Shown piece after piece: positions 28,781 to 39,189 of a DNA stretch of 44,504 bases. Each line of letters starts with the position of its first letter. The stretch's first letter is position 1. The notes under the pieces were generated by a model. That model worked only from the letters and a program-made list of their open reading frames with translations. It was not told the DNA's origin and did no database searches. Made by a program: the position numbers and the translations under genes. Location of the stretch: positions 1 through 44,504 of the IMG/VR virus record IMGVR_UViG_3300009528_000020. One strand, 5' to 3'. Source of the DNA: a virus.

Positions 28781-28816
28781 GTTGTCATTTAGGTTGTCAA
28801 TTGGGTTGTCGTTTCC
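28781..28816. repeat. Three 12-bp units beginning GTTGTC at the convergent operon end
   Basis: GTTGTC starts at 28781, 28793 and 28805, exactly 12 bases apart, in the gap between the converging operons. No hairpin terminator is visible in 28735-28815. Confidence 0.6.
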
Positions 28817-29874
28817 TAATAATCCTTCTCTATAGGCTTATAAAACGGAACCCATTCAAATTTCATTCTCGCTAGATTGTCTTTCCTTCCTTTGTCATTA
28901 ACGAAGAACTCCACAATTAGCCCTCCTATTTCTGGATACAAACCTTTCCTTCGTAAGTAAGGCGTTTGACTTTCAAAACAAGGAAGGCTAAAAGCGGTGA
29001 CATTTCTATACTGGAATAGAGCACAACTTTTATGAAGATGCCCCATGAAATATATATCTGGCTTGGCATCAGGGGAAAATTGCTCTATGTTTTTTTGCAA
29101 GCGATAAGAAAGCGCATAGGGGACTCCGCCAGAGGTATGCTGGAGATAAACTTTTAACCTTGGTAGAATAGGGTAGGCACCATAAGCACCCCAATACTCA
29201 ATGTCTTCTCGTTTGTCAGCTATATTTTCTACGATGTCACATCCAGCCTCTTTAACAAAGGAGTAATCGTGATTACCGGCTATCATTATAGTTTTCCCGC
29301 CATTTTCCATTCTCGGATAGTGCTCAATAACATACTCCCTCTGGGCTTTCTCACCGTGTAAGAAAAGTTCGTATTCCTGTCCTCTATAAACCCTAATGCC
29401 AGCTGTCACATCTCCAGCATGAAGAACAAGTTTAACTCCTCGCTCCTGAGCATAAGTATAGAATGTCCTGAGATGAGTGAGTTGCTGATATTTACTGGCA
29501 GAATGAGTGCAGCTTATTACTGCAAATATTATTCTTTCCCCTTCAAACATGGATGCATCCACTCTTTTCTTGATGTCCATTTTATCGGGAGTAAGTTTTT
29601 CAACCCGATAGCCTTTTTCAGAAAGAAGTTGCCGAAGGTCTTGCTCGCTTATATTACTAGGACTTTCACTCTTTTGAGGATTTTCAATGGTTGGTGAATT
29701 CCCTTTTTTCCATCCCTTGCTACGCCTTAAATTTCTTATCCCCTCCGAGTCTATGTCAAGTTTGAAGCGTTCCTTAATTGTCCTACTTAAAGCAAAGTCC
29801 TTAGCACTTTGATAGTTGTCTTTGATGTAGTTATATACTTCGCTATGCTCTTTCCAGAACTGCTCATTTCTCAT
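28816..29874 (-). CDS. Calcineurin-like metallophosphoesterase with N-terminal HTH
   Basis: 352 aa. The N-terminal 100 residues include a helix-turn-helix-like region (LSRTIKERFKLDIDSEGIRNLRRSKGW), then the metallophosphoesterase core. Motifs: AVISCTHSAS (residues 118-126), LHAGDVTAG, IAGNHDYS, a His in LQHTSGG, and FMGHLHK. All but the first are canonical. In the first, the usual Asp of SDxH is Cys122. Known family activities include phosphodiester cleavage. Last gene of the minus-strand operon. Its job could be nucleic-acid processing. Confidence 0.87.
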   Translation of the reverse strand: MRNEQFWKEHSEVYNYIKDNYQSAKDFALSRTIKERFKLDIDSEGIRNLRRSKGWKKGNSPTIENPQKSESPSNISEQDLRQLLSEKGYRVEKLTPDKMDIKKRVDASMFEGERIIFAVISCTHSASKYQQLTHLRTFYTYAQERGVKLVLHAGDVTAGIRVYRGQEYELFLHGEKAQREYVIEHYPRMENGGKTIMIAGNHDYSFVKEAGCDIVENIADKREDIEYWGAYGAYPILPRLKVYLQHTSGGVPYALSYRLQKNIEQFSPDAKPDIYFMGHLHKSCALFQYRNVTAFSLPCFESQTPYLRRKGLYPEIGGLIVEFFVNDKGRKDNLARMKFEWVPFYKPIEKDY

Positions 29875-30483: not shown

Positions 30484-31470
30484 TCACTTCCCATTTTTGC
30501 TATAGTTATAGTATTTATCCAAAAACTTAGTCTCAATGAATTTTGTTGCCCAGTTATCAAGTTTGGCTTTTGTCCACTCTTTATGTTTATTCTTATAATA
30601 TCGCTTCATATCAAGATATAAGGAATACCATTCTTCGTTTTTCTGTCGGATAACTCCTTTAGCAAAGAAATACAAAGCACGCTTCAGCGAATGACAAAAA
30701 TTCTGATTTCCCTTTTTCTTTTTCATACCACCATAGGAGCGTAAATTAAACTTATGGGGAAAACGACCTATGTTTTTTATGCTTCCCATTATACCTCCCG
30801 CTGTTCTCTCACCACAACCTTTAATTGGTTCAAAAAACTCAGTCCATTCCTTGGTACTATGGATTATCTTTTTAAGAAGATTAAACTCTGTCTTAAACTT
30901 GTTTTGTAAGCTCTTAACCAATTCAGTTTGTCGGTCAATCAGCTTTTTCTCAAAGCCATCTAAGGATAACAATTCAATCTGATTAGTGAGAGCAAAAAGC
31001 CTGTTTTTCTCCTGGACTAAATTTGCTTCTGTCTTTTCTAATCCTTTGTAAATAAGGTAGATTTTAGCCGTAACCTCATCGGATTCCGTGAAAGCTCTAA
31101 AACTGAAACCATTTCCTATCATGCTTCGGAGTATCAGAGCATCAGTTTCATCGTCTTTTTCTAAACCCATACGATTACGTTCTCTTTTGACTTCAACCCC
31201 TGGGATGGTAAAAATCTTGTGTTTGAGTTTTCTAGCAAGCAATTTGAAACTATCGCCCCCGCCCTCTTCTAGATAAAATTCACAAGGGGAAAGCACGAGA
31301 TCGGTAGATAATATTTCTTTAGCACTTCCCCTTTTATTTAACTTCTTAAACCATTTTCGCCAAGCGTCAATTTGATTGGGCAACGATTCTACCTTGCCCG
31401 TCTTGACATTACAAATCTTAATGTCCTTTCTGGTAGCCCAGTCAACGGCATATTGCATTTTTACTTTCAT
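30484..31470 (-). CDS. DEDD recombinase/transposase (IS110/Piv family)
   Basis: Start at 31470 (MKVKMQYAVD...) chosen from the ATGA overlap and AAGGAGAA upstream; an earlier in-frame ATG would overlap the preceding gene by 40 bases. N-terminal RuvC-like DEDD domain: Asp10 in YAVDWATRK, acidic residues in SPCEFYLEEG, and Asp107/Asp110 in DDETDALIL. Middle coiled coil. C-terminal Tnp_20-like domain: FEPIKGCGERTAGGIMGSIKN...RFPHKFNLRSYGG, then HSLKRALYF. Known family: DNA recombination, RNA-guided in IS110. No element ends seen. Could be a phage integrase or invertase. Confidence 0.82.
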   Translation of the reverse strand: MKVKMQYAVDWATRKDIKICNVKTGKVESLPNQIDAWRKWFKKLNKRGSAKEILSTDLVLSPCEFYLEEGGGDSFKLLARKLKHKIFTIPGVEVKRERNRMGLEKDDETDALILRSMIGNGFSFRAFTESDEVTAKIYLIYKGLEKTEANLVQEKNRLFALTNQIELLSLDGFEKKLIDRQTELVKSLQNKFKTEFNLLKKIIHSTKEWTEFFEPIKGCGERTAGGIMGSIKNIGRFPHKFNLRSYGGMKKKKGNQNFCHSLKRALYFFAKGVIRQKNEEWYSLYLDMKRYYKNKHKEWTKAKLDNWATKFIETKFLDKYYNYSKNGK

Positions 31471-31802
31471 TTTCCCTTCTCCTTCTTTCTCTTTCTTCTT
31501 AACCACTTCTTATGGCTCCTTTTAAGCCCCTCCCACCAATCCTGTCCTTCTTGACCAAGTAAGATACCTTTACTCATCACCTGCACTCCGTTGATCCAGA
31601 TACTAGCACCGCCACCCCATTTATGTGCTTTATAGTTATCCATTATAGCTTTAGATAAGTCCTTTTTCGGAGTTTGTCTTTGCGCATTCCTAATCCTCTG
31701 ATATTCGCTACAGCACTTCTTACAGGTATTACCGCTACCCCTGTAATACTCGGTAGGTGCTTTGAGTTGCCCGCATTTAATGCACTTTTTAAATTCGCTC
31801 AA
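31467..31802 (-). CDS. Zinc-ribbon protein (111 aa)
   Basis: N-terminus has CIKCGQL...CKKC, a zinc ribbon followed by basic helix. C-terminus is strongly basic (WLRRKRKKEKGK). Directly upstream of the recombinase and overlapping it by 4 bases; might be a DNA/RNA-binding partner (inference from place). Confidence 0.68.
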   Translation of the reverse strand: MSEFKKCIKCGQLKAPTEYYRGSGNTCKKCCSEYQRIRNAQRQTPKKDLSKAIMDNYKAHKWGGGASIWINGVQVMSKGILLGQEGQDWWEGLKRSHKKWLRRKRKKEKGK

Positions 31803-32295: not shown

Positions 32296-33189
32296 TCACT
32301 TTCTCTCTACCTCCTCCGTTATATCAATAAAATTAGCTCCCCGGTTACACAGATGAAATCCCCATGTCTTACCTACCGGGTCAACCTCGCTAATCGCCCT
32401 CTCTCTCGCCTTGACTACCTTGAGTTTGCCTGGATCGCCTTTCCTTTTCCCCTTATCCATCGCCAAATATAACGAGGCACTTTTAACAGAGTATCCCGCA
32501 CCATAGCCCAAATCTCGCCCCTCGGGTTTCTGTATGGCTACGATAGCCACCCCCTTGTTTAGCTTCTGGATTATCTTTTTCAGCTCATAGCCAATCATAA
32601 AAACCTCGTTATCGAGATCCAAATAGTCAATTACATTAATAGCGTCTGGTTTAATTACATCAGCGTAGTTATCCTCCCTGCGCCAGACCTCAAAGGGAAG
32701 AGACTCAGGAAAATCGGGGTCAATGGCAAGGAATCTCTCGTCCATTTGCCCGTCCCCCATCTCACTATTACTAAAAAGATGGATCGGAAAATCATACATA
32801 TTCATATACACTATGTTATATAACAGGGCTGTTTTACCCGCACCTGATGAACCTGCCAAGATTATCAAACTCTTGGGCAAAATCCTGATCAATTTTTCTA
32901 ACTCGAAGGGGAATCTCAATGGTATGCTCGTTTTATCCGCACCCCGAAAGTTTATCTTTGGTGCTTCATCGTCAACAAGACGGTAGAGTCCGTCCCTTTT
33001 GCCTACGGCTACAACTATGCCCGCTTCTTTAAGGCGTTTCATACATACTCGCACATACGCCTTGTCTTCAGGAAAGGGTGCTGGAAGTTCGCTATATATG
33101 TTCCTGAGACTAAATTGCCCCGCAGTTCCTTTAACCCATTCTTCTACGGCTGTTTTAGAAGGTTTATTCTTATCTTCTGGTTTGCCCAT
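32296..33189 (-). CDS. RecA/DnaB-fold ATPase with N-terminal winged helix
   Basis: 297 aa. N-terminal domain (1-85): winged-helix (YVRVCMKRLKEAGIVVAVGKRDGLYRLV). P-loop AGSSGAGKT at residues 112-120. A Walker B-like acidic strand (AINVIDYLDLDNEVFMIGYELKKI) and motif GVAIVAIQKPEG complete the core. Resembles RAD55/DnaB-type phage ATPases such as AAA_25. Likely replicative helicase or recombination loader; the N-terminal domain may bind DNA. No CXXC or primase module. Confidence 0.75.
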   Translation of the reverse strand: MGKPEDKNKPSKTAVEEWVKGTAGQFSLRNIYSELPAPFPEDKAYVRVCMKRLKEAGIVVAVGKRDGLYRLVDDEAPKINFRGADKTSIPLRFPFELEKLIRILPKSLIILAGSSGAGKTALLYNIVYMNMYDFPIHLFSNSEMGDGQMDERFLAIDPDFPESLPFEVWRREDNYADVIKPDAINVIDYLDLDNEVFMIGYELKKIIQKLNKGVAIVAIQKPEGRDLGYGAGYSVKSASLYLAMDKGKRKGDPGKLKVVKARERAISEVDPVGKTWGFHLCNRGANFIDITEEVERK

Positions 33190-34522: not shown

Positions 34523-35686
34523 CTATTCCTTGCAAAACTCTTCTTTGAGAATTTTATCTAGCGTTTTACCGTCTAGCGAAACTAGCTGGTCAAGGTTGAA
34601 GATATTGCGATTGTAAGTTTGAAGCATTTTAGTTACTTCGGGGGAGTTTTCCTTCCACTCGAGGTCTTTAACCTTATCCTTAATTAGCTTAATCTTTTCC
34701 GCTTTAGTTAGCTTCTTTAGCTCTACCTTCTCGGGTTCATTAGCCAATGGGAGTTTTTTAAGTGCGTCTATCATATCCCTTAGTCGCTGTGGTGCTACAC
34801 GGTGCAATTCATTCCAAGATGAGATACCATATCCGCTTAAAAACTTCTTCTCAACCGAGACAGTCTTAGTTAGGCTAGTTCCAGTTAAAGTCTCTGCGGT
34901 AGTTCTTTCTTCACATAAAGCTTTAACCTCAGTGATTAGCTCTTTCATCTTCTTAAATACTTGCATATCCTCGTAATAGGCTTCGGGGTGTTTGCTGTAT
35001 GTAGCTAAGCCCAGCTTCTTATACCCTATCTCCCTGGCTAGCTTTTTAATCTCATCCATTTGCGTTGGCGTGATCTGCTGGAATTGCTTCTCCCCTGTAT
35101 TCTTATCGGGCTCTATCTTTCCATTCTCAATATCCAGTTTCTTTATTGGCTTCCTTTCCAGTTCCACGTCCCCAGTAGGCATTTCCTCCTCAGCGTATAA
35201 CCCTTCAAAATCCTCTGGGAATGCTTCTCTCAATGCCTGAGCCAAAGCTACTTTTCTAATCATAGTCTTGGGCTTATTCTTCCACATTCGGTTGTCCTGA
35301 TTGTATTCCTCAAAGTCCACCACTACCCGTATTGGCACTTGGTAATCCTTGATATATACCTCAGCCCAAGCTCCCGTAACCTTTCCGTCTTTATCCTTTG
35401 TTGCCTCAGCCTTGTGTCCCTGAAACTTAGGGTTATGAGAAGCTCTTTTTAAGAATACATCCTTACCCACCACCATACTGGCAGCATGCTTGGGATCGTA
35501 TTTAATTAGATAGGCTTCCCTTAACCACGGGTTTAGCTTCTGGTAGAAACACATTTTTATAAAGTGCATGACTTCGGCATCCGTAACTAGATTCTTCTTA
35601 CCGCTTATTAAGTAATCCTTTACCTCTTGCGGTGTCAGTTCAAGTGCACCTTTAGTTGTTTTATACTCTGTTAATTGTTTGTTCAT
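34523..35686 (-). CDS. bet: Single-strand annealing recombinase, Bet/RecT family
   Basis: 387 aa. Residues 40-170 match the Redbeta/Bet core: FIKMCFYQKLNPWLREAYLIKYD..., MVVGKDVFLKRASHNPKFQGHKA, and YNQDNRMWKNKPKTMIRKVALAQALREAFPEDFEGLY. The C-terminal half is an extra, helical extension (QMDEIKKLAREIGYKKLG...). Known role: anneals complementary ssDNA during phage recombination and replication. Encoded with an ATPase and an HNH nuclease but I see no matching exonuclease (alpha) gene. Confidence 0.87.
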   Translation of the reverse strand: MNKQLTEYKTTKGALELTPQEVKDYLISGKKNLVTDAEVMHFIKMCFYQKLNPWLREAYLIKYDPKHAASMVVGKDVFLKRASHNPKFQGHKAEATKDKDGKVTGAWAEVYIKDYQVPIRVVVDFEEYNQDNRMWKNKPKTMIRKVALAQALREAFPEDFEGLYAEEEMPTGDVELERKPIKKLDIENGKIEPDKNTGEKQFQQITPTQMDEIKKLAREIGYKKLGLATYSKHPEAYYEDMQVFKKMKELITEVKALCEERTTAETLTGTSLTKTVSVEKKFLSGYGISSWNELHRVAPQRLRDMIDALKKLPLANEPEKVELKKLTKAEKIKLIKDKVKDLEWKENSPEVTKMLQTYNRNIFNLDQLVSLDGKTLDKILKEEFCKE

Positions 35687-37305: not shown

Positions 37306-37605
37306 TTAAACTCTCGAAATTAACTTCCTAACTAAATCTCCAAAATACGGATAATCAGCATCCAGCCCTCCTAGCTTCTCCTGAATATAGCTATCCGTTA
37401 GCAATCCTTTCTCTTGGAATAGATACGCCAGTCTGGTATTACAGTTAATTACCAGAAACCCTCCTGGGTCAATGCTTCCCATAGCATTAAAGTCTTGACC
37501 TGACATCCAGCGGATAGCAATCGCTTTATAGCTTGTCCCTTTTATTTGTTGATATTCTCCAACCAGAGCACCTCCCAATGGATATATCATAATTTCTTTT
37601 TTCAT
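37306..37605 (-). CDS. Hypothetical protein (99 aa)
   Basis: SD GGAGGTGAGA... in front. MKKEIMIYPLGGALVGEYQQIKGTSYKAIAIRWMSGQD..., a compact alpha/beta domain. Coupled to the HNH gene (ATGA). No family recognised. Confidence 0.6.
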   Translation of the reverse strand: MKKEIMIYPLGGALVGEYQQIKGTSYKAIAIRWMSGQDFNAMGSIDPGGFLVINCNTRLAYLFQEKGLLTDSYIQEKLGGLDADYPYFGDLVRKLISRV

Positions 37606-38066
37606 TTGTTCTCACCTCCCAACTCTATAATTCTCATTCCCGGCTCCACGAATATAAGCTCTCTTCCGCCATTACCAGGGTAACGTATCCAGAACGCCTT
37701 GCTTTCAGGCGTGGGTAGATTATCAACTATGCCCCCCACTTCCTTACCACTAGCAAACACAACCTTGATGTGCATTGACTTCACCTCCTTGGGAAAGTCT
37801 ATATATGCTACTCTAAGTGCCAGGTACTCGGGAGCGGTAAACTCTTCTTTTTGTCTCCGACAGTCTTCGCAGCACGCAAGAAGATTACTAACCTCAGTCT
37901 TTCCCCCACGACACTTAACTACATCGTGGCATAACATCTTGGTTTCCTTACCACAGAATTGACAAGAATTACTATCTCGTCTCAAAGTTTCCCGCCGAAG
38001 GATGAGGGGAATGTAAGAGGATTCGTAGCCCGTATGATGAACAATCTGCGATGTAGATATGTTCAT
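37602..38066 (-). CDS. HNH endonuclease-like protein (154 aa), first gene after the riboswitch
   Basis: Start chosen at 38066 from GGGAGGTCGATC. HNH core: CQFCGKE, then LCHDVVKCRGGKTEVSNLLACCEDCRRQ, with zinc-binding CxxC pairs on both sides and the metal-binding His/Asn positions. The usual last His is replaced (CEDCRRQ), so cleavage activity is not certain. C-terminal half is a separate beta/alpha domain (MHIKVVFASGKEVGGIV...). Directly downstream of the promoter-riboswitch-terminator unit, so it is the head gene of the riboswitch-controlled operon. Confidence 0.72.
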   Translation of the reverse strand: MNISTSQIVHHTGYESSYIPLILRRETLRRDSNSCQFCGKETKMLCHDVVKCRGGKTEVSNLLACCEDCRRQKEEFTAPEYLALRVAYIDFPKEVKSMHIKVVFASGKEVGGIVDNLPTPESKAFWIRYPGNGGRELIFVEPGMRIIELGGENK

Positions 38067-38098
38067 GATCGACCTCCCAATGGCCCCCGGATTTCTCA

Positions 38099-38135
38099 TA
38101 AAAAAAGCCCAATCTTTACCTCAAAAGAATGGGCT
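38099..38135 (-). terminator. Intrinsic terminator of the c-di-GMP riboswitch
   Basis: On the minus strand AGCCCATTCTTT (38135-38124) pairs with AAAGATTGGGCT (38117-38106), 12 positions with one T-T mismatch, loop of 6, then a run of T (about seven, 38106-38100). The left arm CCCATTCTTT is complementary over 10 bases to AAAGAATGGG of the aptamer P2 (38209-38200), giving a possible antiterminator. Confidence 0.85.
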
Positions 38136-38146
38136 AACGGAAATTC

Positions 38147-38237
38147 GGGATGTAAGCTCGGCAACCCAGCTACCATCTGACAGGTCTGTGGTTTTGCGTC
38201 CCATTCTTTCGAATGGTTTGCCTTTGTCGGTCATACC
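38147..38237 (-). ncRNA. Cyclic-di-GMP class I (GEMM) riboswitch aptamer
   Basis: Minus-strand sequence contains the full class I core: AAAGGCAAACC, hairpin P2 CCATTC-GAAA-GAATGG (GAAA tetraloop), GGGACGCAAAACC, a short P3 (ACAGACCTGT), then GGTAGCTGGGTTGCCG, as in the Vc2 aptamer. P1: GGTATG (38237-38232) with CATCCC (38152-38147). The position equivalent to Vc2 G20 is G, which selects c-di-GMP rather than cGAMP. Known role: binds c-di-GMP and switches transcription or translation. Lies between its own promoter and an intrinsic terminator, upstream of the HNH gene. Confidence 0.93.
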
Positions 38238-38275
38238 GGTAAAAATCGAGCAAATGAGAAAGAGCCAATCCCACC

Positions 38276-38304
38276 ATAATAGCAAAAAAATGTTGGTGAG
38301 TAAA
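38276..38304 (-). promoter_or_regulatory. Promoter of the riboswitch leader
   Basis: Minus strand TTTACT (38304-38299), 17-base spacer ending TTGC, TATTAT (38281-38276). Weaker -35 than the other promoters here, but with the same TGC directly before the -10. Predicted start about 38269, so the leader up to the HNH ATG is about 200 nt. Confidence 0.65.
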
Positions 38305-38668
38305 ATTGCGGAAAGTAAAGCTAGATGAAGGTTTAGATTCGGGGCGAAAAACTGCGAGTTGGACTTGAGATTAGGCCCGGGAAAAGCAGTAGAGACGGAA
38401 TCTTGAGAACGGAGGAAAAAAACGTATGCCCCCCATTTGGTTGACATAATATCTCTTATCAAACGATAAACGATGCAGTTATAGAAAGAGTAAGGGTTTG
38501 GGAAGGTTAAAATTTTAAGGTCCGATAATGGGAGAATTGTAATACATCCCTCTCCATCAACTATACCAGCGATGTATGCTCTTTGTGTTTCGATTGCGAG
38601 GCCAGACTTAATTAAATTGTAGAATGGACAATGATTGGATGAGTTTATTTCGGATGGGTTACATAACA

Positions 38669-39142
38669 TTAAATTCTCCAAGCCATATAACGAGCTATGG
38701 GAGCAAAAACTCTCTGTCTTTGTGGCACTCTTTCTAATAAGGCATCAATAAGTTGAAGTTCTCTTTTGGGAATTCCTCGTCTGCGGCGAGCACTTAAAAA
38801 CCAGATTTGTTCATCAATTTTGAAGAGTTCCCAGATAGTGTCTATAAAAATATCGAATTTAAGACCAGATGTTTTAAAGACTTCATATAATACTGCTTGA
38901 TTGAAAGGCGACATTTTGCATTTAAAATAAGCATCTTTAATGATTTCTTTTTTCTTAGGGTTAGACGAGATACAATTGGTAGATTCACATAAAATATTGC
39001 GCCCCGGAACTAGGCCAATCCCCGACACCGGGGGCTGAGGAGTTAAAACGAGCCTCTCCCTTTCACGAAATTCGTTCCCTTCTGAGGGAACTGCAAATGC
39101 AACTTGTCTTACAACTTTGACGAGGTTGGTATTGAAGCTCAT
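38669..39142 (-). CDS. Hypothetical protein (157 aa)
   Basis: ATG 39142, GAGGATGATAAA upstream, promoter at 39161-39189. MSFNTNLVKVVRQVAF..., with a basic Arg-rich segment (SARRRRGIPKRELQLIDALLERVPQRQRVFAP). Contains a coding hairpin CCCCG...CGGGG near 39020. No family recognised. Confidence 0.6.
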   Translation of the reverse strand: MSFNTNLVKVVRQVAFAVPSEGNEFRERERLVLTPQPPVSGIGLVPGRNILCESTNCISSNPKKKEIIKDAYFKCKMSPFNQAVLYEVFKTSGLKFDIFIDTIWELFKIDEQIWFLSARRRRGIPKRELQLIDALLERVPQRQRVFAPIARYMAWRI

Positions 39143-39160: not shown

Positions 39161-39189
39161 ATACTAGCATAATTCTATTTATTTGTCAA
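39161..39189 (-). promoter_or_regulatory. Consensus promoter (CTTGACAA cassette)
   Basis: Minus: TTGACA (39189-39184), 17-base spacer ending ATGC, TAGTAT (39166-39161), then an SD and the ATG at 39142. Overlaps the end of the preceding gene. Confidence 0.75.

Follow-up and report, generated by a model that had tools for sequence, protein, structure and literature searches.

A class I c-di-GMP riboswitch in front of the recombination and replication operon of a phage, predicted to act as a transcriptional OFF switch

C-di-GMP is a bacterial signal, and the class I riboswitches for it are common in bacteria and known from a few phages; the paper in which the class was identified in 2008 reportedly also found a match in a phage genome. 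The locus studied here raises the question of whether the level of this signal in the host could control the recombination and replication genes of a phage. It lies on the minus strand of the window, that is, the whole 44,504-nucleotide stretch of viral DNA that was analysed (IMG/VR record IMGVR_UViG_3300009528_000020). An earlier note, made from the letters of the DNA, had described there a promoter, a class I GEMM aptamer, a terminator and an HNH gene, and had proposed that the operon that follows is gated by host c-di-GMP.

The results of our Rfam search showed that a complete class I c-di-GMP riboswitch is located at positions 38231-38156 of the minus strand; no match besides this aptamer was found in the window.

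38156 to 38231, minus strand: c-di-GMP-I aptamer (P1, P2 and P3; Rfam RF03167 and RF01051), with the GAAA loop of P2 at 38210-38207

The aptamer was recognized by two covariance models, RF03167 (74.0 bits, E 8e-16, gathering cut-off 59) and RF01051 (71.9 bits, E 6e-16, gathering cut-off 35), the latter over model positions 1-87, which is its full length. The RF01051 search was the check that the earlier note had proposed, and it bore out the claim of a class I GEMM aptamer with all its core elements, since those that were named are all present (GGCAAACC, the GAAA-capped P2, GGGACGCAAA and GGTAGCTGGGTTGCCG). The riboswitch is complete and real. Its nearest cellular aptamers, which are 80-88% identical, are spread across Desulfobacterota, Bacillota and others.

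The ligand was then read from the bases that determine its choice, which are G20 (38222), A47 (38195) and C92 (38161) and correspond to the c-di-GMP set. Position 20 was mapped with the anatomy of the cGAMP riboswitch, in which J1/2 is A9-A14 and P2 starts from C15 (PMC6274999), the selectivity base being located directly 5' of the first P2 pair. The A20G change converts a cGAMP switch into a c-di-GMP switch (PMC6456294). The scaffold of the window aptamer is similar to that of the GEMM-Ib cGAMP riboswitches of Geobacter, but position 20 is a guanine in the window and an adenine in GEMM-Ib, which excludes the GEMM-Ib (3',3'-cGAMP) type. A ligand other than c-di-GMP, either 3',3'-cGAMP or another ligand of the GGC variant, is highly improbable, even though the top-scoring model, RF03167, is that of the c-di-GMP-I-GGC variant and has the J1/2 consensus AAAGGCAAACC in common with the window. 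The GGC signature, as read off the RF03167 consensus, is G20, G47 and C92, whereas an adenine is present at position 47 of the window (GACGCAAA in this region, compared with GACGCGAA in the consensus), which excludes a true RF03167 variant. Moreover, RF01051 scored just 2 bits below RF03167, and cellular aptamers with the A47 pattern (L120, L137, L037 and L081) likewise scored best with RF03167, so that the rank of this model is not diagnostic. Judged by these bases, the ligand of the aptamer is very likely c-di-GMP.

The expression platform consists of a terminator and of two strands that can compete with it.

38100 to 38135, minus strand: intrinsic terminator, with arms 38135-38124 and 38117-38106 and six U's at 38105-38100
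38238 to 38251, minus strand: 5' leader strand GCUCGAUUUUUACC, first part of the antiterminator, which forms 14 bp (three of them G-U) with the terminator 3' arm
38200 to 38209, minus strand: P2 3' strand AAAGAAUGGG, second part of the antiterminator, which forms 10 bp with the terminator 5' arm CCCAUUCUUU

The intrinsic terminator with a T-run that had been described here was confirmed; its 11-bp stem has one mismatch and folds alone at -14.3 kcal/mol, and its end is 34 nt from the HNH start codon (38066). The terminator 5' arm and the P2 3' strand are perfectly complementary, and their pairing and P2 are mutually exclusive. Comparison with shuffled sequences showed that the duplex between the leader and the terminator 3' arm (-20.1 kcal/mol) was equalled in none of 2000 shuffles, and that between the aptamer and the terminator 5' arm in 22 of 2000. 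The 176-nt RNA starting from 38269 folded at -59.3 kcal/mol, better than 200 of 200 shuffles (z -4.9), and a 165-nt RNA gave -55.6 kcal/mol for the antiterminator versus -37.9 kcal/mol for the aptamer plus terminator. The mean pairing probability of the terminator increased from 0 in the unconstrained RNA to 0.33 when P1-P3 were locked and to 0.97 when only P2 and P3 were locked. When the leader strand was removed, the terminator formed (0.97) whatever the constraint. The leader strand is therefore required for switching, and a functional transcript would begin upstream of approximately position 38251.

Class I aptamers serve both senses of regulation: Cd1 of C. difficile is an OFF switch established by experiment, in which the aptamer and the terminator coexist and compete with an antiterminator, and pilM is an ON switch, in which the aptamer and the terminator are mutually exclusive (PMC9262584). 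Our computations gave the Cd1 arrangement for the window, with a terminator that is compatible with the aptamer and a competing antiterminator that breaks it, so that OFF is predicted at high c-di-GMP; the earlier note had named no direction. The window differs from Cd1 in that its antiterminator takes the P2 3' strand and a 14-nt strand located upstream of the aptamer. We infer that the element is probably a functional class I c-di-GMP riboswitch, bound by its ligand in vivo and working as a transcriptional OFF switch in front of the HNH-RecT-ATPase operon. When the ligand is absent, both arms of the terminator would be occupied, the 3' arm by the leader strand and the 5' arm by the P2 3' strand, and this antiterminator would let the RNA polymerase continue into the HNH gene and the operon. 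At a high level of c-di-GMP in the host, P1, P2 and P3 would be locked during transcription and the P2 strand would be withheld from the antiterminator, and the terminator hairpin with its U-run would form before the HNH start.

The opposite sign, in which the ligand-stabilised aptamer would favour the pairing of the leader with the terminator 3' arm and lead to read-through at high c-di-GMP, is unlikely. This pairing does not clash with the aptamer, it reached 65% in equilibrium folding with P1, P2 and P3 locked, compared with 33% for the terminator, and an ON switch has a precedent in pilM. However, the aptamer and terminator of the window do not overlap, whereas those of pilM exclude each other, and the probability of the terminator is already 0 without ligand, so that the ligand cannot lower termination further. 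The OFF sign that we favour depends on kinetics, with the local hairpin forming first, because the equilibrium with P1-P3 locked gives only this 33% of terminator. Three other points count against a functional OFF switch. The equilibrium gap of about 17 kcal/mol likely exceeds what ligand binding alone would pay, the start site and the local promoter are putative, and the element was absent from all the close relatives examined.

Two promoters could feed the riboswitch.

38276 to 38304, minus strand: candidate local promoter TTTACT-17-TATTAT, with a TG before the -10 (9/12 matches)
39161 to 39189, minus strand: conserved early promoter TTGACA-17-TAGTAT (10/12 matches), upstream of the gene at 39142-38669

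The local promoter, which had been presented as directly visible, reads as it was written, but its grade is at chance level, with six such sites found in the region compared with 4.3 expected. The early promoter is conserved in L013 and L143. No minus-strand terminator was found between it and the riboswitch by a terminator scan, and this silence is weak evidence because the riboswitch terminator, with its internal mismatch, escaped the scan too. Since a conserved and better-matching promoter is located about 0.9 kb upstream, and may read through into the riboswitch, the latter may act as an attenuator both within a transcription unit and downstream of a start of its own.

The genes behind the riboswitch are closely spaced and run leftward in the order HNH, small genes, RecT/Bet, DnaB-like ATPase, IS110/TIGR-Tas-like protein and metallophosphoesterase.

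37602 to 38066, minus strand: small HNH endonuclease of 154 aa, first gene after the riboswitch, with the SD GGGAGG at 38078-38073
34523 to 35686, minus strand: RecT/Bet single-strand annealing protein (Pfam RecT, 121 bits; NCBIfam bet_lambda, 119.8 bits, above cut-off)
32296 to 33189, minus strand: DnaB-like ATPase
30484 to 31506, minus strand: IS110/TIGR-Tas-like protein
28816 to 29874, minus strand: metallophosphoesterase

The HNH gene matched PHROG HNH families (E 1e-9) and, below cut-off, the NCBIfam IscB HNH region (32.8 bits). The start at 38066 and the SD given in the earlier note were correct, and a homologue in L013, which is 54% identical over the alignment, agrees with this start. 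The protein at 30484-31506, previously called a DEDD recombinase, scored higher with the NCBIfam TIGR-Tas RNA-guided endonuclease (62.1 bits, cut-off 100) than with IS110 (32 bits), and no TIGR-type tandem array was found near it. The best NCBIfam similarity of the metallophosphoesterase was to the archaeal DNA polymerase II small subunit (60.4 bits, cut-off 445).

The proposal that this operon is gated by c-di-GMP stands in so far as a riboswitch and a terminator are located directly before the HNH-RecT genes, but it is weakened by the conserved promoter upstream and by the chance-level grade of the local one; dependence of the whole operon on the riboswitch is our inference. A lifestyle choice of the phage is speculative, because neither an integrase nor a CI-type repressor was identified among the genes searched.

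We compared the locus with three related phage contigs: L013/L019 (one 11-kb contig), L142 (in a 40-kb contig) and L143 (in a 26-kb contig). The portal and terminase genes of L013/L019 are 84-86% identical in DNA to those of the window, and L142 and L143 have blocks that are 71-87% identical. The L019 contig bridges both ends of the window (1 and 44504) and shows that about 0.7 kb is missing between them in the region of the terminase gene; the window is therefore an almost complete genome whose ends lie within the gene for the large terminase. The promoter, the first gene and the HNH gene are retained in order in all three relatives, and RecT relatives are present on the contigs of both L142 and L143; a single-protein scan of viral contigs gave no RecT relative. 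No c-di-GMP-I match at E <= 1 was found over the whole records of the three relatives, and the riboswitch was not found in L013/L019, L020, L021, L142 or L143. Because relatives share the promoter, the first gene and HNH, and two of them also RecT, without the riboswitch, the latter is an accessory control rather than a requirement of the operon.

38669 to 39142, minus strand: first early gene, whose N-terminal part, with the strongly conserved SGIGLVPGRNILC motif, is common to L013, L142 and L143

The C-terminal part of this gene in the window is unrelated to that of the relatives. A conserved RNA element within it (39000-39040) was rejected, since nearly all differences between the phages are synonymous and the conservation is thus coding.

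A block of about 0.9 kb, from approximately 38965 to 38075, stands in the window in place of the relatives' sequence and contains the riboswitch, the divergent end of the first early gene and a LAGLIDADG-like motif that lies outside any intact gene. The motif (AYIAGIVDGEGCI, 38535-38579, minus strand) is a 20-residue match to phrog_5046 (E 0.003) and could be what is left of a homing endonuclease a short distance upstream of the riboswitch. The riboswitch was either gained in the lineage of the window or lost in the others; gain would be the simpler course, as judged from three contigs of which two are near-identical here. These observations bear on whether the cassette is an incidental or non-functional passenger that arrived with a decayed mobile element, the operon being driven mainly from 39189 or from internal promoters. 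The phage-specific block, the motif with no intact gene around it (38579-38535) and the lack of the riboswitch in three relatives would all agree with such an origin. We nevertheless consider a passenger improbable, as the checked ligand-contact bases, P2, P3, the GAAA loop, the terminator and the two independent antiterminator pairings are intact, which is unexpected in a decaying relic, and transcription from the upstream promoter still has to cross the terminator. A functional OFF switch is the reading that we retain.

Among 2.9 million viral contigs, 15 stretches were picked up by two pattern scans, and 14 of them were confirmed by Rfam as RF01051 (L017 was unconfirmed); these counts are a lower bound, as the patterns were strict. 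Several of the 14 seem to be located in host flanks or in secreted-protein contexts. A riboswitch before a recombination operon was found in none of the 11 viral contigs whose neighbours were read (L015, L016 and L018 were left out). Among known phages, there was no nucleotide match to 37600-38700, no HNH match, and no match to the aptamer beyond a 19-nt chance hit.

Phage-borne c-di-GMP-I riboswitches are already known: Cdi1_4 and Cdi1_5 are located in the C. difficile prophages phiCD630-1 and -2, before an antitoxin RNA (PMC3649979, PMC7699646), and their read-through is reported to fall at high c-di-GMP (PMC7699646). They resemble the window element in being phage-borne class I aptamers followed by a transcription terminator. 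They precede an antitoxin antisense RNA close to the lysis genes, in a PhiCD119-like lysis region, whereas the window riboswitch belongs to an unrelated phage and precedes an HNH-RecT-ATPase recombination/replication operon. We found no report of such a riboswitch before an operon of this kind.

Two other arrangements were observed in the viral contigs. In L003, L006, L007 and L010, a small XRE/HTH regulator gene lies downstream of the riboswitch in convergent orientation, with its 3' end 79-117 nt beyond the aptamer, and read-through would therefore yield an RNA antisense to a phage-type repressor; one antisense arrangement of this kind has been reported for a Paenibacillus XRE gene (PMC9943018). 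A dinG RNA (RF03082) is located within about 1.5 kb of the c-di-GMP-I riboswitch in two viral contigs, and a pemK RNA (RF02913) in two others.

L015, 2693 to 2793, and L018, 6610 to 6710: dinG RNA
L008, 4107 to 4185, and L016, 3601 to 3681: pemK RNA

The portal protein was used to look for a host. Its alignment against genome contigs gave no relative, and distant portal relatives were found in 6 of 398 sampled genomes of the phylum of G010 (a Bacillota record), 1 of 395 of the phylum of G007 (Syntrophaceae) and 0 of 400 of the phylum of G008 (Chloroflexi), which is a weak hint of a Bacillota host.

Only tentatively, and with more doubt than confidence, do we suggest that host c-di-GMP is a checkpoint on the recombination and replication genes of this phage, through a switch recently gained in one lineage and an antiterminator in two parts, one of which is located upstream of the aptamer. 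If this were true, the operon would be attenuated and replication delayed in sessile cells with high c-di-GMP, while the operon would be open in motile cells with low c-di-GMP. If the element is ligand-responsive, it would connect a bacterial lifestyle signal to phage DNA recombination and replication genes directly and without a protein, where the known prophage-borne c-di-GMP riboswitches control toxin-antitoxin RNA instead. Its presence or absence among close relatives provides a natural comparison between phages that have the switch and phages that lack it.
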